Notes under the pieces: model-generated
Seen by the model: the letters and a program-made list of their open reading frames with translations, nothing else
What the model was told of the DNA's origin: nothing
Database searches by the model: none
Source: Nitrococcus mobilis Nb-231
Lineage (GTDB): Bacteria > Pseudomonadota > Gammaproteobacteria > Nitrococcales > Nitrococcaceae
Assembly: GCF_000153205.1 (NCBI RefSeq)
Contig: NZ_CH672427.1
Location: 3,154,596 to 3,218,595 of the forward strand
DNA length: 64,000 nt
Direction of reading: 5' to 3'
Program-made: the position numbers and the translations under genes
Shown: positions 48,236-62,695 of the stretch, piece after piece
Position numbering within the stretch: the stretch's first letter is position 1
How the letters are laid out: every line of letters starts with the position of its first letter

Positions 48236-50374
48236 CTAAAAATAGTAACTCGCTCCCACGCCTAAGGCGCGTCCGCGATGCGGTGCTCCGGTTCTCACTC
48301 CGGGGGCGAGCTGATAGCCGGACAGGTCATAGCGTTCGTCGAGAAGATTGTTGCCATAGAGGTAGAGTTCGGTGCTGCCGGTCAGCAATGCCACCCGGAT
48401 ATCCACCAGGTCGTAATGATCCAGGTTGAAATGATTCTGTGGATCAGCGGGCCGGGCGCCGACGTGGTGGTAACCCAAGCGGGCTTTCAGCATCGGCAAT
48501 TCCAACCCTAGCATCTCGGGGAGGTTGCGCTGGTAGCTGAGAGCCAGATCGCCGCTCCAGCGAGCCGCATTGGGAACGCGGTTTCCGGAGCGGACATCGC
48601 CGCCCTGCACGCCGATGGCATCACTGGTAATTTGCGCGTTGATGTAACTCACCGACCCGGATAGCGCCAGATGCCGGTTCAGGTTCGCTGTCCCTTGCAG
48701 TTCCGCGCCCCAGCTTCGGGTATCGGCGTTGATGGCTCTGATGGCCTGGGTGGCTGCGTCAAAGCCCAGCAGGTGGTCATCCTTGACGCGGCTGAGGAAG
48801 GCGGCGCCGTTGAGGGCGTATTTTCGCTGGGAGGTTTCCAGCTTGAAGCCGACTTCCACGTTGTCCACGACGGCAGCTTCGGTCGGTTTGCTGTCCTCGA
48901 CTTGGGTGGTGTAGTCACTGAACAGGCCGGATTTATAACCTCGTGCCAGCGTGCCGTAGAGGTTCAGAGTCGGAGTGAGAGCGAAGGACAGACCGGTCCG
49001 TCCGGTAGTGTAGTCGTCGTCGAGACGGCGGTCATCGTGCTGCCAAGCGCCGTTGAAATAGTCCGCCTCATAGGTTTTCCGGTCCCACGTGTGGCGCACC
49101 CCGAAGGTCCAGTCAAGGGTGTCGGTGAGCGGATAGGTGGCTTCTCCGTAGAGCGCGGAGCTGCGGGTTTCAAAATCCCGGTTCTGTTGGGTACCGGTGG
49201 TTTCGACTACGGAATCGAAATCGCGCTTGGAGCGGGACGTATACAAACCGATCACCCAGAAGTTCGATGCGCCGGGCAGGGAGGACCAGCGCAGCTCCTC
49301 GCTGACTACCCGTTGTCCGAAGTCGTCCTCTCTCATGAACTCCATTGGCATGCCGAACAGCGCCTCGTTGATTCGCCGTCCGAAGCCTGTGACCAGAAGC
49401 GCATCCGTTCTCAGCAAAGCGGTGATGGAGGTGAGACGGCTTGTTGCGAAATCGTGGTGAATGTTCGCGGAGTAACGTTCCACTGTATTGCGATTATCGT
49501 CGAAGAGACCCGGTGTGATATCGATCTCGGTCGGATTTCCGAAGGGATGCAGCGCTTGCACGGCGGCACCGCTCCGGATGCGCTGTCGTTCGGCGATCAA
49601 AAGGGCGGTGGTGTTCTCGCCGGCATTCCAGAGCAAGCTGCCGCGGTAGGAGAGCAAACGGGGTTCGGAAATCGGCTCGCCGTCATTTACGTTCTCCACC
49701 CAGTGATCCTCTTGGCTTTGACGAAGGGCGAAGCGAGCGCTGAGACTTTCGGTGATCGGGCCGCTCAAGGCGCCTTCAAGGCGATATTGCTGGGACTGCC
49801 CTTGAAGCCCGTACTGCCTGAATTGCCCGTACCGCCCTCGAAGATAGCCTTCGAGGTAGGGGGTGGGCTTACGACTGATCACGTTAATGGCACCGGCTTC
49901 GCTGTTGCGGCCGAACTGGGTGCCCTGGGGGCCCTTGAGGACCTCCACGCGCTCCATATCCAGAGTGGCCAATGAGAGTTGGCGGGCGGACATCGCCACG
50001 CCGTCAACGTTGAGGACCACGGAGCCGTCTTCCTGGCTGATCTGATTAAGCGATCCTACTCCCCGAATCAACACATTGGCATCGTAGGGCCCTGAGGAGC
50101 TGACGTTCACGCCGGTAGTGTCACGCACAGCGGTTTCCAGGTCCGGGTCTCCCTTCGCGTCCAAAGTATCACCGTCGATCACGCTGATACTGAATGGCAC
50201 GTCCTTCGCCTGCTCCTCACCGCGGCGGGCGGTGACCTTGATGCTCTCCATTTGGTGGGGAGGTGCCGCTTCATCGGGCTCGCCTTCTGTACCGGCAGAC
50301 GACAGCGGCGGCGGCAGCAGTAGAGTAAGAACTAGAACCACGCTTGACTGGGAAGGGCTCAATGACCTAGTCAT
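48236..50374 (-). CDS. TonB-dependent outer-membrane receptor, FyuA-like, likely siderophore uptake
   Basis: A 712-residue outer-membrane receptor: signal peptide (about 1-28), TonB-box region (MESIKVTARR, about 42-51), plug domain (VLIRGVGSLNQISQEDGSVVL, VEVLKGPQGTQFGRNSEAGAINVI) and a 22-strand barrel ending in the BAM signal SYYF. The plug resembles the FyuA branch, which takes up yersiniabactin. It stands in the same locus as an aryl-capped thiazoline-type NRPS, so uptake of that ferric siderophore is the natural inference. An inverted repeat is found 17 bases before the start. Confidence 0.85.
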   Translation of the reverse strand: MTRSLSPSQSSVVLVLTLLLPPPLSSAGTEGEPDEAAPPHQMESIKVTARRGEEQAKDVPFSISVIDGDTLDAKGDPDLETAVRDTTGVNVSSSGPYDANVLIRGVGSLNQISQEDGSVVLNVDGVAMSARQLSLATLDMERVEVLKGPQGTQFGRNSEAGAINVISRKPTPYLEGYLRGRYGQFRQYGLQGQSQQYRLEGALSGPITESLSARFALRQSQEDHWVENVNDGEPISEPRLLSYRGSLLWNAGENTTALLIAERQRIRSGAAVQALHPFGNPTEIDITPGLFDDNRNTVERYSANIHHDFATSRLTSITALLRTDALLVTGFGRRINEALFGMPMEFMREDDFGQRVVSEELRWSSLPGASNFWVIGLYTSRSKRDFDSVVETTGTQQNRDFETRSSALYGEATYPLTDTLDWTFGVRHTWDRKTYEADYFNGAWQHDDRRLDDDYTTGRTGLSFALTPTLNLYGTLARGYKSGLFSDYTTQVEDSKPTEAAVVDNVEVGFKLETSQRKYALNGAAFLSRVKDDHLLGFDAATQAIRAINADTRSWGAELQGTANLNRHLALSGSVSYINAQITSDAIGVQGGDVRSGNRVPNAARWSGDLALSYQRNLPEMLGLELPMLKARLGYHHVGARPADPQNHFNLDHYDLVDIRVALLTGSTELYLYGNNLLDERYDLSGYQLAPGVRTGAPHRGRALGVGASYYF

Positions 50375-50640: not shown

Positions 50641-53600
50641 TCACTCGACATTCGTATCTCCGAGCCATGGCTTATCGTGTGATTCGCTGTGTTGCGCAAA
50701 CCGGGGATAGGCGGGCCAGTTGTCGAGTAAAACGCCGGGGTTTTTTTCAGTATCCCCGGAGACGGAAATGATCCGCCCCTCCCGTCGCACCAGGCGGTGA
50801 TAGTCCGCCGGTGAAGGCAGGGGTTGCCAGCCGCCGTCCTGCCAGCGCCAGCGCTCACCCTTGGGACTAAAGCTGAGGGGCGGCCCGAGTAGTCGGCTTG
50901 CCGGTTTCGCGCCTAGGCGAGCGGTCAGGGCGGCCGCCAGATCCTGCCGGTGTCGAATGTCGGCGAGCAGGCTGTTCAAATCAGACGAGGTTTGGCGAAC
51001 GGTCCAGCTCAAGGCCGCAAGAGGAGCATACTGGCGCGCCCAGCCGGTGGTCGGCGCGTTCTCCAGGGAAGACACCGGGATGCTGCTGTTAACGAGGCTC
51101 TGAGTAGCGGTTTCCGCGCGCCGCTGAATAACGGCTCGCAGGGCTTTGATGCCGTTTTCATCGCCCACGCATAATAGCCCGACAGCCCCAGCAACACCCC
51201 AGCTGAGCCACGCCGAGCCATGGCCGCGGCGCAGATCGCTGGCGCTGGTCAGGTAATGGCGTGCCATGGCCTCGGCGATATGAGCCTGACGCAGCCAGCG
51301 CCCGGTGCCTTTGTCCGCTACATCCCAATTCGGGGCCTCGCTCAGTTGCAGCACGTCCTGAGCAAGGCGAGTGCCTCCCAGCCCGCGGGGCCACTGCACC
51401 ACATCATTGATTTCGATACTGGTACCCAGGCGCCGAGAAACGCAGGCTTGCATCAAGCGGACGTCGTCAGCCACGCCTTTCGCCACATCGGCCCGACTCG
51501 GGTCGCTGGTCACATTCAGGTCATCGCGTTTCAGTGTGTAGGCGCCGTCGGGCAGGAATAGGCTGAAGCCCAGAGTCCCCCGGGTCTGTCCCTGCTCGGA
51601 CCATATCTGGTCCGCGCGCCGGACGTTCAACTGCCATCGCCATTGTCCGAAGGGCGCGACGCCTTGGGTGGGGACGGCGGCGGAGGCCGACGGCGGGATG
51701 AATTCAGAGGTCAAGTCATAGCGTGTCCTCTCCGCAGGAGCACGCACGGCACGGTCGGGGTCGATGCCTAGCCGGGGGACCACCCAGTCGGCGCGCAGCC
51801 ACACCTGATTGCCGCCCAGCACAGGGAGATGGTCGTTGGTGGGCCAGCCGGAGAGAGACAGCGTCCAGTCCAGCTCGACCTGGCAGCCGTGGTCGGCGCA
51901 GCTGCCTAGAGGCAGAATCAGATGGTCATGGGCCGCGGTGGCGCTGGCTGGCTGATCGTTCACCTGCACCGAGGTGAGAGAGAAACCCGGTGGCAACTCG
52001 GCGTGTAACACACCCGTATCAGCATGGACGTCATTGATTCGCCAATGGCCCTGCACTTCCCGAGTCAGGGTGTCGAGGTCTAGGATCAGTTCGCCGCCGC
52101 CCGCCGTGAAATCACCGCTGGTGCGCGCTGTGCTCCGCTCCCAACCGACTTGATCCCGCTGTTCCTGTTCGGCGGAGCGATAGGCTCCATCGGTCACCAA
52201 ATTTTGGTGCAGCAGGGCGCCGGTGGCTATGACCCCGAGAAGGGCGATCAACCCCAAGCCACCGATCGGGCCGGGGACTCGCATCCTGACTTCCCGCAGG
52301 CGGCCGAGTTTTCCGCGCGGCAGCACCAGGCCGGCAAGGGCCACGAACAGCGCGGCCACCCCCAGTTTGTAGCCGTCCATGGCTAGCAAGTAGGCCCGCC
52401 AGGGCTCCCATCCGGTCAGTGCGGAAAAGTGGATTTGCACGGGAATCCCGAATTTGTACGGCGGGTAGTGCACTAATGCCAGTTCGTTGTTGAGGACCAG
52501 GGTAAAGGTCACCAGCATGGAAGCGGCATAGGCGAGGCCGGGGCGCCGAATCAGGGCATGAACCAGCAGCGCCAACATGGCGAGTTCCAGCAGGGCCGGG
52601 GCCATTACCAGGGTTTGGTAGATGAGGGTGGTTCCCAGGGCCAGGCTCTCGGGAGTGACCAGCGCCGTCACGATCAGCCCGGCCACGCCTGGCAGCAAGG
52701 CCAGGATCAGGGTGATCAGCACCAGGGTTAGGGTGAGGGCGAACAGACGCACGAAAGCTGGGGCGGGAGCGGCGTCGAGGATGTCCTTTAAGCCTTCCAC
52801 ATCGTCTTGCCGCGATATCAAACCGGCAATGGCGGCCACCAGGAAGGCGGTGACCAGGTAGATGGTAGTCATCAGCAGCGGCAATAACCGATCCGGGTGG
52901 GGCTGAAAGGGGCCTTCCGCGTGCCATATCACATGAACGAACGCGGCCATTACGCCTACGCCCACCAGCAGGGCAGCGCCGATCAAAGTGGCGCGTGTCC
53001 GTAGTGTTTGCCGCAGCCGCCAGTGGGTCTCGGTGGCGGTCGCATTCCACCATCGGGGAGTCTGCGCCGGCCCGGGATGGGTTTCCGGGCACACCAGCTC
53101 CGGCATTCTGGCGGCGTGCCGGGAGGGACGCTCGGTGCGTTCGAATATCAGTGTCTCGCGGCGCACCCGGGTCACCAACCATGCCAGCCCTGTGATCGGG
53201 AGAGCGCACCAGAGCCCTCGGTTCAGCAAAAATTCGCGGCTTATCGGCAGCAGAGCCTGACTCTTCTGTTCGGGTGTCCAACTTTCCACTTGAGCATGAG
53301 TGAGGGTGAACAGGGATGGGTCCAGGACAGCCGCCAGGAAGGGATTAATGTCTCCCCCCTCCAGTACCACGACGGCGATCATCCACAGCAGCATCAAAAC
53401 CGCGGACAACCCGAATGCACCGGCCATGCTGCGCGTGCGCAAAGTGATCATGAAGTACAGCGCGCCGATGCCGAAAGCGCTCGGTACGACCAACCACAAC
53501 CAACTGAACCACAAAGCTTGCCAAGCGGGGGCGGTGATGGTGCCGGTCGGCACCAGGTCCAGCCAGGACAGCAGCGGAGCGCACAGGAAGCCGACTATCA

Positions 53601-53973
53601 CCGAACCGCCCAGCAGCGTGCCGACCATCGCGGCACCTAGAAAACGTCCGAACAGCAGTGAACGCAGAGAGATGGGTGCGGACAGCACGATCTCATGCAG
53701 ACTGGCCTGACGGTCCCGGAGCAGCGCTTGCGCGAACACCCACGCCCAGGCAAAAAACAAAAAGAACATGCAACCGGTGCTCATCAGATAGATCAGGCTC
53801 GGAGCATTGCGGGGAATGTCCGTGGCCGCCATTTTTTCCATGTATTCTGCGTTGGTGAGGGACATCAGCAGATAGAGCGGCAGGCCGAGTAGGACCAAGG
53901 TGACGATCCCGCTTCGCAGTCCCGCGCGCAGTTCATGGCCGGCTTCGTAAAGGATCAAAAGCAAGGCTTTCAC
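50641..53973 (-). CDS. ABC-2 type permease fused to a degenerate M1-peptidase-like domain
   Basis: An 1110-residue protein. The first 570 residues have about twelve hydrophobic helices in two halves separated by a soluble loop, matching a duplicated ABC-2 permease; the soluble half (about 600-1110) has the plan of an M1 aminopeptidase. At the expected HExxH site (about residues 895-907) the sequence is RQAHIAEAMARHYL, so the zinc motif is lost and the domain is probably not a peptidase. GTG start overlaps the ATPase stop (GTGA). With the ATPase it likely forms an exporter, perhaps for the NRPS product. Confidence 0.75.
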   Translation of the reverse strand: MKALLLILYEAGHELRAGLRSGIVTLVLLGLPLYLLMSLTNAEYMEKMAATDIPRNAPSLIYLMSTGCMFFLFFAWAWVFAQALLRDRQASLHEIVLSAPISLRSLLFGRFLGAAMVGTLLGGSVIVGFLCAPLLSWLDLVPTGTITAPAWQALWFSWLWLVVPSAFGIGALYFMITLRTRSMAGAFGLSAVLMLLWMIAVVVLEGGDINPFLAAVLDPSLFTLTHAQVESWTPEQKSQALLPISREFLLNRGLWCALPITGLAWLVTRVRRETLIFERTERPSRHAARMPELVCPETHPGPAQTPRWWNATATETHWRLRQTLRTRATLIGAALLVGVGVMAAFVHVIWHAEGPFQPHPDRLLPLLMTTIYLVTAFLVAAIAGLISRQDDVEGLKDILDAAPAPAFVRLFALTLTLVLITLILALLPGVAGLIVTALVTPESLALGTTLIYQTLVMAPALLELAMLALLVHALIRRPGLAYAASMLVTFTLVLNNELALVHYPPYKFGIPVQIHFSALTGWEPWRAYLLAMDGYKLGVAALFVALAGLVLPRGKLGRLREVRMRVPGPIGGLGLIALLGVIATGALLHQNLVTDGAYRSAEQEQRDQVGWERSTARTSGDFTAGGGELILDLDTLTREVQGHWRINDVHADTGVLHAELPPGFSLTSVQVNDQPASATAAHDHLILPLGSCADHGCQVELDWTLSLSGWPTNDHLPVLGGNQVWLRADWVVPRLGIDPDRAVRAPAERTRYDLTSEFIPPSASAAVPTQGVAPFGQWRWQLNVRRADQIWSEQGQTRGTLGFSLFLPDGAYTLKRDDLNVTSDPSRADVAKGVADDVRLMQACVSRRLGTSIEINDVVQWPRGLGGTRLAQDVLQLSEAPNWDVADKGTGRWLRQAHIAEAMARHYLTSASDLRRGHGSAWLSWGVAGAVGLLCVGDENGIKALRAVIQRRAETATQSLVNSSIPVSSLENAPTTGWARQYAPLAALSWTVRQTSSDLNSLLADIRHRQDLAAALTARLGAKPASRLLGPPLSFSPKGERWRWQDGGWQPLPSPADYHRLVRREGRIISVSGDTEKNPGVLLDNWPAYPRFAQHSESHDKPWLGDTNVE

Positions 53974-54851
53974 GCTGTCGCTCCCGTGCGCTCCAGTGCC
54001 AGGTAGTAGACATCCTCGAGTCGCGGGGGGCGGGGAGCGAAGCGATCATCCGGCGCCTGTTCGCTGTGGCATATCACGCGAGCACCGCGAGGGTGGGGCA
54101 GGACGCGAAGGGCAGTGTCTGGAATCGCGTCACCCCGTTCGAGCGCGGCTTCCCAAATCGACCCTTGATAGGGGGCGGCCAGCGACGCCGGTGTGCCCTC
54201 GACGAGCAGTTTGCCGCCGGCTAGTATCGCCAGGCGGTCGCAAAGATTTTCCACGTCCTCGACGATATGGGTGGAAAGCAGCACGATGGTGTTCGTTGCG
54301 GCTTCGGCCAGAACGCGATGAAAATGATTGCGCTCGGCGGGGTCCAGGCCAGCGGTGGGTTCATCCACGATCAACAGGCGTGGTGCGCCGATCAGTGCCA
54401 GAGCAATACCAAAGCGGCGCAGCATGCCTCCGGAAAAGGTGGACACCGCTTGATGGGCCCTATCTCTCAAATTGACCTTATCAAGTAGCACCTCCACCTC
54501 ATTGCGACGCTCCAAGCGTTGATGCCGGCCTTTCAGCCAGGCGAATCGTTCCAGCAGGTTTCGAGCCGGGATTCCCGGATAAGCGCCGAGTTGCTGTGGC
54601 AGGTAGCCGAGTCGCTGACGCAGATGATCCGGGCGTGCGAGCACGTCCTCGCCATCGAGAGAGAAGCGTCCGCGGTCCGGGACCTGTAGCGTGGCGAGAG
54701 TCCGCATCAAGGTGCTTTTGCCAGCCCCATTGGGACCCAGCAGGCCGTACATTCCGGGTGCCACATGCAGCGTCACGCCATCCAAGGCGCGCACGCCGTT
54801 ACCGTAGGTCTTCGCCAGGTCCTCGATGACCAAGCCGGTTGGTTTCGCCAT
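53970..54851 (-). CDS. ABC transporter ATP-binding protein
   Basis: A 293-residue ATPase with Walker A GPNGAGKSTLM, Q-loop YLPQQLGAYPG, signature STFSGGMLRRF, Walker B LLIVDEPTAGLDP and H-loop STHIVED. The C-terminal extension is of the kind that accompanies ABC-2 permeases. Start ATG 54851; a TTG at 54890 is possible. The stop overlaps the GTG of the permease gene, so they form a coupled pair. Divergent from the AraC regulator, sharing about 170 bases of regulatory DNA. Confidence 0.9.
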   Translation of the reverse strand: MAKPTGLVIEDLAKTYGNGVRALDGVTLHVAPGMYGLLGPNGAGKSTLMRTLATLQVPDRGRFSLDGEDVLARPDHLRQRLGYLPQQLGAYPGIPARNLLERFAWLKGRHQRLERRNEVEVLLDKVNLRDRAHQAVSTFSGGMLRRFGIALALIGAPRLLIVDEPTAGLDPAERNHFHRVLAEAATNTIVLLSTHIVEDVENLCDRLAILAGGKLLVEGTPASLAAPYQGSIWEAALERGDAIPDTALRVLPHPRGARVICHSEQAPDDRFAPRPPRLEDVYYLALERTGATA

Positions 54852-55023
54852 GAAGTGGATTCCCAAAAAAGAAGCCTTACTGAACGGCAAGGCTTCGAGG
54901 TCGACAGAGGTTAGGAAACGCTTTATACAAGGTAAATTTTTTCATTTGTTGTTCCGCCCGAATCAGCTGTTTTTATACCCGGATCGGTTCATTTGTGTAT
55001 TCATGAAGCGGAGGTTCATTGCA

Positions 55024-56055
55024 ATGGAGATTTCTCGCATGTCCATAAATCAATCCACCTTGGCGCGGAGGGAACTGTCCGCGATCGCATTGCTTTCCAA
55101 CACTTCGATCATCGATCTGGAGCCATCGTCAAACTGCCGATTGTTGCGAACATCATTGCAGGACGGGGTGGAACTACTGGTTTGGCAGGGCCAGTTCGAG
55201 AATCCGGTGACCATGAATGTCTGTGACGATAGTGGGAGAATCCATTTCTCTTATTCCTTGCGGGGGGGATTCCAGAGTTGGTTCGATGACAGTGATCCGG
55301 AGCACGTCCATACGGTTCACGAGGGGGACGGTTGTATCAATTACAATCCGGGCCGATCCGGTGGGTTCCGCCAGCATGGGGAGTTCGAAAGCGTCACCGT
55401 GATGATGTGTCCGGAGGTGCTCTCTCAGTGGGTTGGGGAGCTGAGTGTTCTGTTGGAACGTTCGATCAGTTTGGGGCGTTGTTTTGCCCATTGTCTGTGT
55501 AGCAACGCGGAGTTGAGAGCCACCGCTCACGCACTCAGCAAGGCATTGCGGGTTTCCGACCTGTGCCCCGAGGATGCCAGCAACCGGAAGCGATTGTGGC
55601 TTTTCGGCAACAGTCTGGTATTCGTCAGTCTGTTGTTGGAAACGCTTGAATCCAATTCCCAATGCGCCTGCGATCTGTCGCTTCCGGATCGGGAAAAGCT
55701 GATTCGGGCTCGGGAATTGTTGTTGCGAAACCTCAGTCAGGCGCCCACCATCGATGAGCTGGCCAGGGCCTCGAATCTGACTGTGATCAGACTGAAGCGG
55801 GGTTTTCGCCGGCTTTTTAACAATAGCGTTTATGGTCTTTTTCAGCGCGAACGCATGCATGAGGCACGCCGCCGCCTCGACACCGAGGGCCAGCCGGTTC
55901 TCAGGGTAGCCGTCGAGTTAGGCTACACCAATGCCAGTCATTTCGCTGCTGCTTTTTATAAGGAATTTGGCGTTAACCCGTCCACATTCAAGCGTCGGCA
56001 ATGCCGAAAAAAGCGGTCGAACACAGTGAACGGACTCGGGTTCAAATCATCTTGA
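55024..56055 (+). CDS. AraC-family regulator, PchR-like
   Basis: A 343-residue transcription factor. The C-terminal AraC/XylS double helix-turn-helix (about 230-325) has PTIDELARASNLTVIRLKRGFRRLF and VAVELGYTNASHFAAAFYKEFG. The N-terminal sensor half has no metal or sugar motif; PchR-type regulators bind their own ferric siderophore there. Start ATG 55024 has GGAGG upstream; an ATG at 55003 is possible and the frame extends back to 54826. Its position, between the exporter and the NRPS, suggests it activates the locus. Confidence 0.85.
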   Translation: MEISRMSINQSTLARRELSAIALLSNTSIIDLEPSSNCRLLRTSLQDGVELLVWQGQFENPVTMNVCDDSGRIHFSYSLRGGFQSWFDDSDPEHVHTVHEGDGCINYNPGRSGGFRQHGEFESVTVMMCPEVLSQWVGELSVLLERSISLGRCFAHCLCSNAELRATAHALSKALRVSDLCPEDASNRKRLWLFGNSLVFVSLLLETLESNSQCACDLSLPDREKLIRARELLLRNLSQAPTIDELARASNLTVIRLKRGFRRLFNNSVYGLFQRERMHEARRRLDTEGQPVLRVAVELGYTNASHFAAAFYKEFGVNPSTFKRRQCRKKRSNTVNGLGFKSS

Positions 56056-56122: not shown

Positions 56123-59100
56123 ATGAATGATGTCACTGATGTGCCGGACCTGCGCGCTCGGGTAGCGGAGGTTCTTGATCTTCCCGTTGAAGCCGTCAGC
56201 AAGGACGGCAACCTCATCGAAATGGGGATCGATTCGATCACCATGATGCGGCTGGCCAGTGAATGGTGCCGCCAAGGCTATGGAATCAGCTTTGCCGAGA
56301 TGATCTCGGATCCAAGAGTTTCAGCCTGGCGAACGATCATTTCGGAGAGTGAGCGGGAAGCACCGCGGACGGACAGCGGCATGGCCGTTGATGAGCAGGC
56401 ACCGTTTGAGCTCGCCTTAATGCAGCACGCGTACTGGGTGGGGCGTACAGGTGAGCAGTATCTCGGCGGTGTCGCCGCCCATTTCTACAACGAATTCGAT
56501 GGTGTCGGCGTGGAAGCCGCGCGTCTCGAAGCCGCGGTTCGCGCGCTGATCGAACGCCACGGCATGCTGCGGGTGCGCATCACCGACGATGGCCGCCAGC
56601 GTATTCCCGCCGACAGCCTCTGGCCGGGTTTGACCGTTCATGACTTTCGCACGCTGGACGTCGGGGACGCAGAAAAAGCACTTGAAGAGCTACGCCAGCG
56701 GCTTTCTCACCGGCAGATGAATCTGGTCGCAGGAGAGGTGTTCGATGTTCAGCTTTCCTTGTTGCCCGCTTCCCTTCGCCCTGGCGCCACTCGTATTCAT
56801 TTCAATCTGGACATGGTCGCCGCCGATGCCTTGAGTCTGCGTACGTTGTTGAAGGATCTGGCTTATCTGTATGCGGGCCGGGAATTGCCTCCCATCCAGT
56901 ACAGTTATCCACAGTATCTGGCTGACCGCGAAGCCGCGTTGTGTCAGCCGGATCGGGCAAGCGCATTGCGGAACGACCGGGCTTACTGGTGGCAACGACT
57001 CGATCAGATGCCGGCGGCACCACGCCTGCCGGTGGTCGGCGCGGGTGAGGAGCGGAACGCAACGCGAGTGGTGCGCCGACACAGATGGTTGGCGCCGGAT
57101 TCAGTTCGAGCCTTCGAGGCGGCGGCCCGGCAGCATGGTTTGACGCCCGCTATGGCGCTGGCGGCTCTGTTCGCCGAGGTCCTGACCGCTTGGAGCGCCG
57201 AACCCGCCTTTCTGCTCAATCTCCCTCTGTTTAATCGTGAGCCGCTCCATCCTGAGGCCGATCTCCTTGTCGGCGACTTCACTTCCTCAGTGTTGTTGGA
57301 GTGGCAGGGCGGTGCTGGGGGGACTTTCGTCGAGCGGGCCACCGCGCTGCAGGCGCGCTTTCATTCGGATGTGCAACACAGCGGTTTTTCCGGCGTCGAG
57401 GTACTGAGGGAGCTTTCCCGTCGTCATGGCGAGCGGTGGCTGGCTCCGGTGGTTTACACCAGTGCCTTGGGGCTGGGGGAGCTTTTTCCCGACATTGTCC
57501 AGGAGTGTCTTGGCCGTCCTTCCTGGATTATTTCCCAGAACCCGCAGGTCTGGCTGGATGCTCAGGTCACGGAACTCAATGGCGGCTTGCTGGTGAATCT
57601 GGATGCGCGGGAGGATGCCTTCGAGCCGGGTGTGCTGGATGCCTTGTTCGATGCGCACGGCCGATTGTTGGCCGATCTGATCGACCGCCCCCAGGTCTGG
57701 AACCAACCGGTTTCGCCGTTGTTGCCCGATGCCGCTCGGAAACAGCGGGAGGCGATCAACGCCACCGGAACGCCGGTATCTGGTCGCCGTCTGCATGACG
57801 GCTTCCTGGCCTTTGCCGAAGCCGAGCCGCAAGCGCTGGCGCTGCTTTGGGAAGAGCATGGGGCGTTGTCCTATGGCGAGCTACGGCGTCAAGCGATGGC
57901 CGTCGCCGGCTATCTGGTGGCGAAAGGCGTGCGACCGGGGGACGTGGTAGCAGTGTTGCTGCCGAAGGGGCCGGAACAGATTATCGCCGTGCTCGGCACG
58001 CTGGCGGCGGGAGCGGTGTACCTGCCAATCGGTGTGGACCAGCCGGCGGCCCGGCGCGAACGCATCCGGCGCGCCGCCGCGGTGCGCCTGGTGCTCGATG
58101 CCTTGCCGCAGGACGCTGAGCCGCTGGCGGCGCCCGTGCCTGGTTCGGATCAAGACCTCGCCTACATCCTTTACACCTCTGGTTCTACCGGCGAGCCCAA
58201 GGGCGTGGAGGTGCCGCATCGAGCCGCCATGAATACCATTGAAAATTTGAATCGCCGCCTGGAGCTATCCGGCGCCGATCGAATTCTGGCGCTGTCCGCT
58301 CTCGAGTTCGATCTCTCGGTTTTCGATATTTTTGCCGCTCTTTCCGTGGGAGCCGCCGTGGTTTGCGTGGACGAGGCCGAGCGCCGGGATGCGGCGGCCT
58401 GGAATCGATTGATACGGCGCCATGGGGTTAGCCTCCTGAATTGCGTACCCGCGTTGCTGGACATGATGCTGAGCGCGCCGAACGATGAAAGCGGGCCGGT
58501 GACGCTGCGGGCCGTGTTGCTTGGGGGCGACAAAATTCCCCCGAATCTTCCCGGCAGACTGGCGAACTGGGCGCCGGGGTGTCGTTTCATTGCACTGGGG
58601 GGCACCACCGAGACGGCCATTCATTCCACTTTCTTCGAGGTTACGGAAACCCGGCCCTCCTGGCATTCCGCTCCCTACGGCAAGCCTCTGGGCAACGTTT
58701 GCCTGAGAGTGGTGGACGCTTTGGACCGAGACTGCCCGGACTTCGTTCCGGGCGAGCTCTGGATTGGCGGGGAAGGGGTGGCCCGGGGCTATCGCGGGGA
58801 TCCGGAAAGAACCGCCCGCCAATTTGTCGTGCATGACGGACGGCGCTGGTATCGCACCGGGGATCAGGCTCGCTATCGCTCGGACGGTAACGTCGAATTC
58901 CTAGGACGCCTCGACCAGCAAATCAAATTGCGCGGTCATCGCATCGAGCTTGGTGAAGTGGAGGCGGCCCTGGTTTCCGGTCCCGGGGTCGGTCAGGCCG
59001 TGGCGTTGGCGGTCAAGCAGGGCCTGGTGGGCGTTATTACGTTGTCCGGCCGTAATCAAAGTACGACGGGCGCGGGCGGGTGGCTGGACCTGCAGGCCCC

Positions 59101-62100
59101 CCCGGCGGCGTTTCAGCCGCTCCGGGAGCACCTGCGCGAGACGCTGCCACCGGCGATGGTGCCGGTAAGCCTTTACTGCTGCTCCGAATTGCCGCTTACC
59201 GCCAACGGCAAGGTTGATCGCAAGTCGTTGGCCCGCCTCATTGAGCAAAGTGCCAAGGCGGCAAACCCGACGCTCGTCGTTCCCCCCGAAGGCGAACTGG
59301 AACGTCGTGTGGCCGAAATCTGGTCCAGGCTGCTCAAGGTGTCCGCAGTAGGGCGCGATCAGAACTTCTTTTCCCTCGGTGGCGATTCGCTGCTTGCCAC
59401 CCGGATGGCACGACAACTTGGCGAGCTCGGCATTGCGGGTGTGCGTCTGGCGGCGTTGTTCGAGAATCCGACCCTATCGGAGTTCGCCGCCACTCTGCAC
59501 CTCGGCGGTGCTCCGGCGCTGATGCAGGAGTGGCACGCGGATGTCGAAAACCGCTATCAGCCGTTCCCGCCTACGGAGGTGCAGCACGCCTATTGGATCG
59601 GCCGGGATCCGGGGCTGGTGCTGGGTGGTGTCGGCTGCCATTTTTACCGCGAGTACGATGCCGGGGATCTGGATATCGCACGGCTGGAAGCTGCGGTGAA
59701 TACCCTAATCGGCCGGCATGAGATGTTGCGCGCGGTGTTCGATGAAGAAGGTCGCCAGCGGATTTTGCCCGATGTGCCGCGTTTTTCCATCAAAATCGAT
59801 GATGCGGAGGGCCGTTGGGACGAGGTCTGCGACGCGGTGCGTGCGGAAGCCTCGCATCGAGTGTTCGACCCTACACGCTGGCCGTTGTTCGACATCCGCG
59901 CGATACGTTCGCGACAGGGTACGCGTCTGGCGATTAGTCTGGATAATATGATCGTCGATGCACTCAGCATCGTGATGTTTTACGCGGAATTGAGTCAGCT
60001 TTATCAGCAACCCGATGCCTCTCTGCCACCGATATCTTTGTCGTTTCGCGATTACCGGCTAAACAGTGCACCTTCGCCGCAGGCGCTGCAGACAGCCCGG
60101 GAATTCTGGCTGCGCAAATTGCCGGAACTGCCGCCGGCACCGGAGCTGCCGCTGGCCCGTAACCCGGAAGAAATCGGCGTGCCGCGCTTTGTTCGTTACC
60201 AGGGAAGCCTGGACGCCACAACCTGGTCCCGTCTGACGAACTGGGCCCAGCTCGAGGGTGTCACCGCGTCGGCTATTCTACTGACCGCCTTCGCCGAGGT
60301 GTTGGGCCGGTGGAGTTCTAGCCCGGACTTGACGCTGAATCTGACTCTCTTTGATCGCCAGGAATGCCACCCCGACATTCACCGGGTGATGGGTGACTTC
60401 ACGTCCTTGACACTACTTGGTTACCGGGCACGGAACACCGATAGCTGGCTTGATCGCCTTCGGCGAACACAGAAAGAACTGGGGGAGGCGCTCGATCATC
60501 GTGCATGCTCAAGTGTCGCACTGTTGCGCGAGTTGGCCCGGGATACTGGGGATGCCATGGTGTCCATGCCGGTGGTGTTCACCAGCGCTTTGGGTGTCCC
60601 CGGTGGCACCGCTTTTCCGGAAAGCGGCCCTTTCAGCCGGCAGGTCTGGGGCGTTACGCAGACACCACAGGTGTGGATAGACCACCAGGTGGTAGAAGCG
60701 GATGGCGGCATCGCATTGAACTGGGACGTGGTGGAGGACCTCTTCCCCGGTGGATTGATCGCCGATATGTTCGATGCCTATCTCCGTTTGTTGCATCTGT
60801 TGGGCGATATGGACTGGCGAATGCCGCCGCCGGACCTGATGCCGTTGGGTCAACGCGAAGTGCGCCGACAGGTCAATGCCACTACCGCGCCGCTTCCTCA
60901 GCACGCCTTACACGACCGCTTCTTTCAGAACGCACGGGAAAACACCGACTGGATTGCCTTGCGATGGGGGCGGAGCGGGACGCGGAGCTACGGCGAACTG
61001 GCCGATAGCGCGCTGCGGGTGGCTGCGGAATTGATACGCGGTGGCGTCTCTCCGGAGGAGGTGGTGGCGGTGCATCTGCCCAAGAGTCCGGATCAGATCG
61101 CCGCTGTATTGGGGGTGCTGGCCGCCGGTGCTGCCTATTTGCCCCTGGGCATGGATCAGCCGGTCGCCCGTCGTGATCGGGTGTTGCGGCGGGCCGGTGT
61201 TCGCCGGGTGGTGACCGACTCGAACCAATCCTGGCCGGACCAGGTATCACCCTGTTTGTTTTCCCGCATACGGGCCGTCGAGCCCTTGCCTGAACCTGTG
61301 TCGGTGGCCACGGATCAGCTGGCGTACGTGATTTTTACTTCCGGCTCCACCGGTGAACCCAAAGGCGTGGAGATTACTCACCGCGCTGCCCTGAATACGA
61401 TACTCGATATTAACCGCCGCTTCGGTGTCGACGCGCAGGATCGTGTGCTGGCGGTATCAGCCCTGAATTTCGATCTGTCGGTCTACGACATCTTCGGTCT
61501 TCTTTCCACCGGCGGTTCGCTGATTCTCATCGACGAACAGGCGAGACGCGAGGCCCGCGACTGGCACGAACTGGCGCGACGACATGGTGCGACCATTTGG
61601 AACAGTGCTCCGGCTTTGTTGGAGATGTTGTTGACGGTCAGCGATCAGTCCTCGCCACCGGCGCCGTTGCGTCTGGCTCTGGCTTCCGGCGACTGGATCG
61701 GTTTGGATCTGCCCAGGCGTCTCACCGCCCGCTTCCCCGAATGCCGTTTCATCGCTTTGGGCGGTGCCACCGAAGCGTCGATCTGGTCCAATTTCTATGA
61801 GGTCGAGACGGTGGATGCCGACTGGCGTTCCATTCCCTACGGGCGACCTCTGTCCAATCAGCGTTTCCGTGTGGTCGACGAGCAAGGGCAGGATTGTCCG
61901 GACTGGGTCAGCGGTGAACTGTGGATCGGTGGGGACGGTCTGGCGCTCGGCTACCGTGCCGACCCTGAGCGCAGCGGCGCGCGCTTCGTTACCATTAAAA
62001 CGGGTCGCGACGATACCACGGGCCGATGGTATCGGACCGGTGACCGGGCCCGCTACTGGCCGGACGGCGTGTTGGAGTTTCTCGGTCGGATCGACGATCA

Positions 62101-62695
62101 GGTCAAAATTCGCGGCCATCGTATCGAACTTGGAGAGATCGAAGCAGCGCTTCTGGAATGCCCCGGCGTTGACCATGCGGTCGCGCTCGTGCTGCGTGGG
62201 CCGGCTTCAACGGCGCGACTGGTAGCTGCCGTGGTGGCGCCACCCGGGCACCCGGTCCCCGATGGCGACCTTCTGCATTCGCACCTGATCGGAATATTGC
62301 CGCCGCCGATGGTTCCCGAACACATCGAGGTGATGGATGCCTTGCCGCTGACCGCCAATGGCAAGGTGGATCGTGCCGCGCTGGCGGAATGCTTCAAAAG
62401 CCCCGCTTCGAAGGACGAGAGTCAATCCGGGCCGCCGCAGGGCGAGTGGGAACAGCGCGTCGCTGAGATCTGGGAAGCACTGCTAGAGGTGCCTTTTCCA
62501 CAACGACAGCACAGTTTTTTCGAACTGGGGGGCGATAGCCTTTTGGCAACCCGTTTTACCGAAACCCTGTGCCGCCGCTATGGAGTGACTTTACCCCTTC
62601 GTCACCTTTTTACCCAGCCTATGTTAGCGGATGTGGCGGTGGCCATCGAAGTCGAAGCGGCGCGCGCCGTGGATACAGAAGAAGGCGCCCTGTGA
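56123..62695 (+). CDS. Non-ribosomal peptide synthetase, ArCP-Cy-A-PCP-Cy-A-PCP
   Basis: A 2190-residue assembly-line enzyme. Domains: aryl carrier (about 5-75, Ser38 in GIDSIT); Cy1 (about 93-520, DMVAAD at 230-235); A1 (about 550-1040, Tyr684 in YTSGSTGEPKG); PCP1 (Ser1089 in GGDSLLA); Cy2 (D-N-M-I-V-D, 1274-1279); A2 (about 1600-2095); PCP2 (Ser2139). All Cy domains have DxxxxD rather than HHxxxDG, so they cyclise Cys/Ser/Thr. Aligned to the GrsA code positions, A2 gives D-L-Y-N-L-S-L-I-W, the canonical Cys code; A1 gives D-L-F-N-L-G-L-I-H. No methyltransferase or epimerase is inserted. Resembles PchE and HMWP2 but with an extra A domain. Confidence 0.92.
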   Translation: MNDVTDVPDLRARVAEVLDLPVEAVSKDGNLIEMGIDSITMMRLASEWCRQGYGISFAEMISDPRVSAWRTIISESEREAPRTDSGMAVDEQAPFELALMQHAYWVGRTGEQYLGGVAAHFYNEFDGVGVEAARLEAAVRALIERHGMLRVRITDDGRQRIPADSLWPGLTVHDFRTLDVGDAEKALEELRQRLSHRQMNLVAGEVFDVQLSLLPASLRPGATRIHFNLDMVAADALSLRTLLKDLAYLYAGRELPPIQYSYPQYLADREAALCQPDRASALRNDRAYWWQRLDQMPAAPRLPVVGAGEERNATRVVRRHRWLAPDSVRAFEAAARQHGLTPAMALAALFAEVLTAWSAEPAFLLNLPLFNREPLHPEADLLVGDFTSSVLLEWQGGAGGTFVERATALQARFHSDVQHSGFSGVEVLRELSRRHGERWLAPVVYTSALGLGELFPDIVQECLGRPSWIISQNPQVWLDAQVTELNGGLLVNLDAREDAFEPGVLDALFDAHGRLLADLIDRPQVWNQPVSPLLPDAARKQREAINATGTPVSGRRLHDGFLAFAEAEPQALALLWEEHGALSYGELRRQAMAVAGYLVAKGVRPGDVVAVLLPKGPEQIIAVLGTLAAGAVYLPIGVDQPAARRERIRRAAAVRLVLDALPQDAEPLAAPVPGSDQDLAYILYTSGSTGEPKGVEVPHRAAMNTIENLNRRLELSGADRILALSALEFDLSVFDIFAALSVGAAVVCVDEAERRDAAAWNRLIRRHGVSLLNCVPALLDMMLSAPNDESGPVTLRAVLLGGDKIPPNLPGRLANWAPGCRFIALGGTTETAIHSTFFEVTETRPSWHSAPYGKPLGNVCLRVVDALDRDCPDFVPGELWIGGEGVARGYRGDPERTARQFVVHDGRRWYRTGDQARYRSDGNVEFLGRLDQQIKLRGHRIELGEVEAALVSGPGVGQAVALAVKQGLVGVITLSGRNQSTTGAGGWLDLQAPPAAFQPLREHLRETLPPAMVPVSLYCCSELPLTANGKVDRKSLARLIEQSAKAANPTLVVPPEGELERRVAEIWSRLLKVSAVGRDQNFFSLGGDSLLATRMARQLGELGIAGVRLAALFENPTLSEFAATLHLGGAPALMQEWHADVENRYQPFPPTEVQHAYWIGRDPGLVLGGVGCHFYREYDAGDLDIARLEAAVNTLIGRHEMLRAVFDEEGRQRILPDVPRFSIKIDDAEGRWDEVCDAVRAEASHRVFDPTRWPLFDIRAIRSRQGTRLAISLDNMIVDALSIVMFYAELSQLYQQPDASLPPISLSFRDYRLNSAPSPQALQTAREFWLRKLPELPPAPELPLARNPEEIGVPRFVRYQGSLDATTWSRLTNWAQLEGVTASAILLTAFAEVLGRWSSSPDLTLNLTLFDRQECHPDIHRVMGDFTSLTLLGYRARNTDSWLDRLRRTQKELGEALDHRACSSVALLRELARDTGDAMVSMPVVFTSALGVPGGTAFPESGPFSRQVWGVTQTPQVWIDHQVVEADGGIALNWDVVEDLFPGGLIADMFDAYLRLLHLLGDMDWRMPPPDLMPLGQREVRRQVNATTAPLPQHALHDRFFQNARENTDWIALRWGRSGTRSYGELADSALRVAAELIRGGVSPEEVVAVHLPKSPDQIAAVLGVLAAGAAYLPLGMDQPVARRDRVLRRAGVRRVVTDSNQSWPDQVSPCLFSRIRAVEPLPEPVSVATDQLAYVIFTSGSTGEPKGVEITHRAALNTILDINRRFGVDAQDRVLAVSALNFDLSVYDIFGLLSTGGSLILIDEQARREARDWHELARRHGATIWNSAPALLEMLLTVSDQSSPPAPLRLALASGDWIGLDLPRRLTARFPECRFIALGGATEASIWSNFYEVETVDADWRSIPYGRPLSNQRFRVVDEQGQDCPDWVSGELWIGGDGLALGYRADPERSGARFVTIKTGRDDTTGRWYRTGDRARYWPDGVLEFLGRIDDQVKIRGHRIELGEIEAALLECPGVDHAVALVLRGPASTARLVAAVVAPPGHPVPDGDLLHSHLIGILPPPMVPEHIEVMDALPLTANGKVDRAALAECFKSPASKDESQSGPPQGEWEQRVAEIWEALLEVPFPQRQHSFFELGGDSLLATRFTETLCRRYGVTLPLRHLFTQPMLADVAVAIEVEAARAVDTEEGAL

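Follow-up and report, generated by a model that had tools for sequence, protein, structure and literature searches.

The first adenylation domain of a mupirochelin-type NRPS cluster in Nitrococcus mobilis is predicted to activate serine or threonine rather than cysteine

Cysteine has been called for the first modules of the sorangibactin, kasichelin and mupirochelin synthetases (for the last by two of four programs), and labelling, products or MS are reported to give serine or threonine. The first adenylation (A) domain of sorangibactin, SrbC, was assigned to Cys by antiSMASH, yet isotope feeding led to the incorporation of one labelled Ser (PMC10127202). The cyclization (Cy) module of kasichelin, KasH, was predicted to take Cys by antiSMASH and Thr by other programs, and the product is reported to contain Thr (PMC12305651). 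For the first A domain of MchA two programs returned Cys and two returned Thr, and the first residue of mupirochelin was taken as Thr from MS/MS (PMC10080011). In the madurastatins a salicyl-Ser unit (as an oxazoline) comes first, followed by Gly, beta-Ala and OH-Orn, and their synthetases are described as having modules for Gly, beta-Ala and OH-Orn, an N-methyltransferase and a final module that lacks an A domain (PMC10779116, PMC10951976). The madurastatin serine was found as D-Ser without a known epimerase, and the authors leave its epimerisation open (PMC10779116). Ser- and Thr-derived rings both occur among closely related nocobactin-type siderophores, and in Nocardia the A domain of each strain's NbtF homologue is considered to make the choice between them (PMC7413640). 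The coelibactin product has never been isolated, and its methylated dihydrooxazole is a prediction. The Ser/Thr-type aryl-oxazoline module itself is already known as a kind.

The Cys pocket of PchE is given as DLFNLSLIWK in a cryo-EM study, which describes S301 and W331 as lining the pocket and reports that two pairs of hydrophobic residues, including I846:W847, narrow it for the cysteine side chain (PMC8807600). In Table 1 of PMC3672683, eight of nine rows marked Cys or Cys? have N278 and that of EqbE has Asp; F239 is a residue of PchE itself (Table 1 of PMC3672683; PMC8807600).

Here we describe an NRPS cluster in a stretch of 64,000 nt from Nitrococcus mobilis Nb-231, referred to as the window. 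The features of NRPS1 and its neighbors are collected in Table 1. NRPS2 was read beyond the window end, its full span being L009:343-5844, with the A3 code DLYNLSLIW and the TE motif GYCLGG. An initial annotation had read the code of the first A domain (A1) from D730, L731, F734, N773, L799, G801, L825, I833 and H834, given A2 of the same protein as DLYNLSLIW, and placed a Cy domain ahead of A1. We found all nine residues and their codons as described; the A2 code is correct and A3 reads identically, and the Cy domain is present with its DxxxxD intact as DMVAAD. The proposed alignment to PchE was carried out with chain 7EMY, which aligned with A1 gap-free in the code segments. As the A10 lysine is present, A1 is predicted to be active.

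Table 1. Positions of the features in and around NRPS1, numbered from the first letter of the window.
Feature	Position	Strand	Basis or remark
TonB-dependent receptor (role of mchQ)	48236..50374	-	Pfam
1110-aa protein, no Pfam match, in the place of mchP (membrane protein)	50641..53973	-	Position
ABC transporter ATPase (role of mchO)	53970..54890	-	Pfam
AraC-family regulator (role of mchR)	54826..56055	+	Pfam HTH_18; NCBIfam matches listed all under cut-offs
NRPS1, 2190 aa, ArCP-Cy1-A1-T-Cy2-A2-T	56123..62695	+	ORF; Pfam AMP-binding x2, Condensation x2, PP-binding x3
Phosphopantetheine motif MGIDSI of the aryl carrier protein	56222..56239	+	Sequence motif
Cy1 core motif DMVAADA (DxxxxD), form seen with G301/H331 A domains	56810..56830	+	
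A1 core domain, code DLFNLGLIH	57758..58975	+	
A1 code codons D730..H834	58310..58624	+	G301 = G801 (58523-58525); H331 = H834 (58622-58624)
A10 motif NGKVDR, catalytic lysine K1030 (codon from 59210)	59204..59221	+	
T1 carrier motif LGGDSLL	59375..59395	+	
Cy2 core motif DNMIVDA, form seen in Cys modules	59942..59962	+	
A2 core domain, code DLYNLSLIW (Cys)	60875..62155	+	
NRPS2 start, TubC docking-Cy3-A3-MT-T-TE, 1833 aa	62747..64000	+	Extends beyond the window to L009:5844

Among solved chains PchE (7EMY) comes closest to the A1 core, although linear gramicidin synthetase outscores it when a longer stretch of A1 is used. A1 shares seven of nine code residues with the PchE Cys pocket DLFNLSLIW and differs only by S301G and W331H, its Gly and His occupying the places of S813 and W847 of PchE. 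Identity is 6/9 to DLYNLSLIW and 4/9 to DLYNMSMIW of HMWP2, and again 4/9 to each of DFWNIGMVH and DVWHLSLID, which we take to be the Thr and Ser codes. The canonical Thr code DFWNIGMVHK has F236, W239, I299, M322 and V330, all absent in A1, so that only D235, N278, G301 and H331 are shared, and V236, W239, H278 and D331 of the canonical Ser code DVWHLSLIDK are all missing. That A1 is a canonical Thr or Ser domain was rejected, as such domains form separate sets in the A-domain tree. Residues 278, 301 and 331 had been put down as Thr-type by the initial annotation. This is right for G301 and H331, but N278 is common to Cys and Thr codes, and therefore only G301 and H331 depart from Cys. Consequently we do not count N278 as evidence for Thr, nor F239 as unusual, since Cys domains have the former and PchE has the latter.

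Over the nine positions A1 thus resembles Cys more closely than it does any textbook code for Ser or Thr, which speaks against a Ser (or Thr) reading. A1 could be a relaxed cysteine domain making a thiazoline as the first ring, as in pyochelin and yersiniabactin, and the antiSMASH calls of Cys for SrbC, MchA and KasH fit this explanation. We nevertheless find it highly improbable. A1 lacks the S301 and W331 of the PchE/HMWP2 type and has G801 and H834 there, and both of these changed residues belong to the lining of the cysteine pocket in the PchE structure (PMC8807600). SrbC and KasH, the Cys-called domains for which products are in hand, are reported to take Ser and Thr. The clade of A1 and the motif of Cy1, described below, also argue against Cys. 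With His and Gly in place of the pocket Trp and Ser, a hydroxyl group would find both space and a side chain able to hydrogen-bond with it, which suggests that a Cys pocket may become a Ser/Thr pocket via two residues.

The code had been regarded as a one-off hybrid of Cys and Thr, but it recurs. Relatives were taken from one scan of 84,980 species genomes and from plasmid searches, and among the matches listed, which are a sample, the working set comprised 97 loci with 262 distinct A domains, 87 of them with a Cys-like code by our filter; it holds few biochemically tested domains. DLFNLGLIH is found in eight of the 262 among the matches listed, namely in the window, L012 (same genus), L013 (same order), two Embleya, Actinomadura soli, Tsukamurella and Pseudonocardia. 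Variant codes among these matches are DLFNVGLIH and DAYNTGLIH (Nocardia), DLWQLGLVH and DLYQLGLVH (coelibactin type), DLYSMGLIH (Pantoea, Nocardia fusca and Allokutzneria), DLYNLGLIH (Streptomyces) and, more distantly, DIMHPGLTH (Mycobacterium sherrisii). In the 87 Cys-like codes listed the 301/331 pair is S/W in 56, G/H in 19 (the type to which A1 belongs), G/W in two and something else in ten, with no S/H at all. These pair counts led us to reject a chance pairing of G301 and H331. Both G/W domains (DAFQMGVVW and DMYNFGVLW) lie outside the DL[YFW] type among the matches listed. Several rows are near copies (window/L012, L023/L122 and L024/L124/L032), so the counts overstate independence. No characterised Cys domain with G301/H331 was found among the 87 listed A domains with a Cys-like code. 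Nearer to the window, a search of the class with A1 under a strict limit returned no other genome among 369, and a search of the order returned three of 54 genomes, the window's own included; of four further genomes in the genus, one has the same NRPS at 95% identity.

The search also brought up some observations of a different kind. A plasmid of Pantoea sp. At-9b (L026 4258-13851) encodes two consecutive DLYSMGLIH modules and then a Cys module, which could indicate a bis-oxazoline siderophore; the Cy of its second module reads DSMMLD rather than DMxAxD. Klebsiella pneumoniae plasmid CP032834.1 carries at 65312-66907 an NRPS stretch that by BLAST is 52% identical to A1 and 58% to the A. soli domain. 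G301 is also seen within a DMYNF background, in L041 (DMYNFGVLW), L051 (DMYNFGIIC) and L052 (DMYNFGLIH), the last lying outside the oxazoline clade.

A tree of 96 A domains unites 19 of its 21 G301/H331 domains in a single clade with an SH-aLRT of 99. The same 19 domains stay together at an SH-aLRT of 95 when the 34 columns that we take to be the pocket positions are removed (95 rows, PchE left out). Both trees are quick ones without bootstrap, and their rows were picked by code; other codes and rows below 380 aa were dropped, and Ser, Thr and Gly are represented by at most seven rows each. The 21 G/H rows include L036 (DIMHPGLTH) and the second domain of L033, which the Cys-like filter had left out, and the 19 domains of the clade are not the same 19 as those of the filter. 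The two G/H domains outside the clade, L052 and the second domain of L033, have other codes. A1 lies inside this clade, apart from A2 of the same protein and from PchE and HMWP2, and the tree lacking the pocket columns and PchE gives the same picture. The clade is nested inside the Cys-type A domains, and therefore most likely arose from them; for the same reason we rejected a swap of A1 from a canonical Thr domain. The G/H domains are a clade of Cy-A modules, nearly all of them at the aryl-capping first position.

The Cy domains differ along with the A domains. DMxAxD is present in 17 of the 19 Cy domains preceding G301/H331 domains and in one of the 40 preceding Cys-type domains, rows without D at both ends (two G/H and nine Cys) having been set aside and the Cy of PchE being absent. 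The exceptions are DMVVCD in L125 and DSMMLD in the second Pantoea module on the G/H side, and DMLAVD in the third module of L032 on the Cys side. A1 is itself preceded by an ArCP and a Cy domain with this motif, so that Cy1 has the form of the G/H modules and not that of Cys modules. In the Cy tree, seven Cys-type Cy domains, including Cy1 of HMWP2, fall together with those of the G/H modules, and all seven have DLL; assembly-line position thus seems not to be the cause of DMxAxD. Leu or Met has been described as commonest after the first Asp, with no link to substrate given there (PMC9547227). In the main text of the open-licence papers searched, we found no paper with the code letters or the Cy motif letters, and what may be new here is the pairing of the Cy motif with the A code. 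On balance we lean, if only slightly, towards the view that DMxAxD together with G301/H331 in an otherwise Cys-like pocket separates oxazoline from thiazoline starters of phenolate siderophores, that the clade arose once from Cys Cy-A modules, the Cy and A domains having switched together from thiol to hydroxyl, and that clusters called Cys-Cys-Cys and bearing this two-domain signature, including that of the window, would make aryl-oxazolines.

A link to serine comes from Actinomadura soli (L030/L120), where a stand-alone ArCP-Cy-A-T module carries the DLFNLGLIH code. An NRPS of 3967 aa, encoded about 6 kb downstream, contains four C domains, four T domains and one MT domain but three A domains, and therefore no fourth A domain. 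These three read DILQLGMIW, IDTTISLGD and DMENLGLIN, which we take to be the codes for Gly, beta-Ala and OH-Orn. Judged by module content, the A. soli starter module sits in a madurastatin-type cluster. In the genus of A. soli 42 of 65 genomes gave a match at E <= 1e-200, of which 39 at 79% identity or more, and the best 30 loci carry DLFNLGLIH in 29 cases and DLYNLGLIH in one (L129 is A. soli again). Nine downstream flanks of these relatives were read. A Gly-code domain was found in seven, accompanied by the beta-Ala code in four and the OH-Orn code in one, several of these flanks ending early; the other two had no A domain and no madurastatin-type NRPS. The A core of A1 is 60% identical to that of A. 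soli. In the 34-residue pocket the identity is 31/34 to A. soli, 30/34 to Embleya and at most 23/34 to the nearest Cys-type domain.

The initial annotation had proposed that activation of Thr (or Ser) yields a (methyl)oxazoline beside a thiazoline. A hydroxy amino acid and a Cy-made oxazoline beside Cys-derived rings are indeed very likely, but Ser is better supported than Thr, because madurastatins have serine at this place and a cluster of their type shares the nine residues and 31 of the 34 pocket residues. This link to serine runs through A. soli, which is likened to madurastatin producers by its genes. A methyl-oxazoline from L-threonine, as proposed for mupirochelin, is unlikely for A1 in our view, even though G301 and H331 are those of the presumed Thr code DFWNIGMVH, because the madurastatin-like module with its nine identical residues is of the serine type and A1 has neither F236 nor W239 of the Thr code. 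Threonine was nonetheless taken from MS/MS as the first residue in mupirochelin, whose cluster is alike in gene content (PMC10080011), and is reported to be incorporated by the antiSMASH-Cys module of kasichelin (PMC12305651). Clade membership alone leaves the methyl group unfixed, because the mupirochelin and kasichelin modules take Thr (proposed and reported, respectively), the coelibactin ring is predicted to be methylated and the nocobactin type is split between Ser and Thr. A1 might also be promiscuous for Ser and Thr, perhaps also Cys, and give mixed oxazoline and methyl-oxazoline congeners, seeing that close relatives of the nocobactin type carry Ser- or Thr-derived rings. The authors of that study tie ring type to each strain's A domain and not to mixing (PMC7413640), and the pocket is nearly fixed among the DLFNLGLIH members, 27 to 33 of 34 residues being identical to A1. 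Such mixing appears quite improbable, and as it overlaps with the serine and the threonine readings its probability is not to be added to theirs.

Taken together, we predict that A1 very probably activates Ser or Thr rather than Cys, and that it is probably a Ser-activating (possibly Thr-activating) A domain of the aryl-oxazoline type. As A1 belongs to a family known to pick Ser or Thr, the product should start with an oxazoline and not a thiazoline.

Downstream of the NRPS genes lie genes for two ABC proteins, a saccharopine-dehydrogenase-like protein and two methyltransferase proteins, then an Irp3-like thiazolinyl imide reductase (TIGR01761, 334 bits) and a VOC/glyoxalase-like protein. These are followed by an aryl-AMP ligase (nearest to DHB_AMP_lig, 623 bits, under the cut-off of 724), a thioesterase, an isochorismate lyase and an isochorismate synthase. 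Also downstream of the window is a 782-aa ORF (L009:11494-13839) with a C-terminal methyltransferase; its first ~430 residues lack a Pfam match and on visual inspection resemble a degraded adenylation domain to which the MT has been fused. Elsewhere in the genome (G000:C1:760892-787461) there is another large NRPS region, which comprises at least seven adenylation domains.

Domain order, codes, clade, Cy motif and gene content are direct readings; every substrate and every ring in the following pathway is what we infer. Judging by their families, the isochorismate synthase and lyase would make salicylate, which the stand-alone ligase would load onto the N-terminal ArCP. A1 would adenylate L-Ser and load T1, and Cy1 would condense the salicyl group with Ser and cyclodehydrate the product to a hydroxyphenyl-oxazoline. 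Two rings derived from Cys would follow, through Cy2-A2 and Cy3-A3; the Irp3-like reductase would probably reduce at least one of them, and one or both would probably be methylated. The TE, in which GYCLG has Cys at the nucleophile position in place of Ser, would then release the product. We rejected an oxazole made by a P450, as the genome has none: no P450 match was obtained in the whole genome, while the control was positive in 7 of 14 genomes. Because of this, the ring should stay an oxazoline.

Compared with known systems, A1 shares with the A domain of PchE (pyochelin, 7EMY) the module position and the seven code residues, F239 among them, but PchE has S301/W331 and activates Cys whereas A1 has G301/H331. 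With the madurastatin starter (Mad63/ReneQ/Mds21 type, here A. soli) NRPS1 shares ArCP-Cy-A-T, the code DLFNLGLIH and the Cy motif DMVAADA, but there Gly, beta-Ala and OH-Orn modules come next, and here two Cys modules. At the level of the whole cluster, the window has the set of the mupirochelin/sorangibactin/coelibactin-like clusters, consisting of ArCP-Cy-A-T-Cy-A-T plus Cy-A-MT-T-TE, a saccharopine dehydrogenase and an Irp3-like reductase, together with their TE with a Cys nucleophile; the P450 of the SrbH, MchH and CYP105N1 type is absent. The TE motif GYC[LMS]G is also present in L024, L025, L026, L028, L032, L047 and L127, and was not found in L125, nor in L124, where the locus ends inside the gene. 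The coelibactin-type cluster of Streptomyces sp. NBC_01320 (L024/L118) has the same NRPS pair, an A1 of the same clade with G301/H331 and the TE motif GYCLG, but its A1 code is DLWQLGLVH and, unlike the window cluster, it has a P450 and a salicylate synthase. This P450 matches 3TYW/4FXB with 797 bits, which is presumably CYP105N1.

The srb cluster of sorangibactin (Sorangiineae MSr11367) is described with NRPSs of seven and five domains, as in the window, and with a saccharopine dehydrogenase, two MTs, an Irp3-like reductase, a VOC protein and a TE with a Cys nucleophile, all of which the window cluster shares (PMC10127202). It differs in the P450 SrbH, held to make the oxazole, and in having a single Irp9-like salicylate synthase where the window cluster has two enzymes. 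The G301/H331 pair is probably the feature that misled the predictors for the matching modules. If those modules carry it, the pair and DMxAxD would correct structure predictions for metallophore clusters in at least two phyla. Recognising the pair also helps to place the P450-less, mupirochelin-type cluster of the window. The mch cluster of mupirochelin (Pseudomonas sp. NCIMB 10586) has, by its described families, the family order of the window cluster apart from the P450 mchH: both have two NRPSs, two ABC proteins, a saccharopine dehydrogenase, two methyltransferases, a thiazolinyl imide reductase, a VOC protein, an aryl-AMP ligase, a thioesterase, an isochorismate lyase and synthase and an AraC regulator, and on the opposite strand an ABC ATPase and a TonB receptor, with an unassigned protein of the window in the place of the mch membrane protein (PMC10080011).
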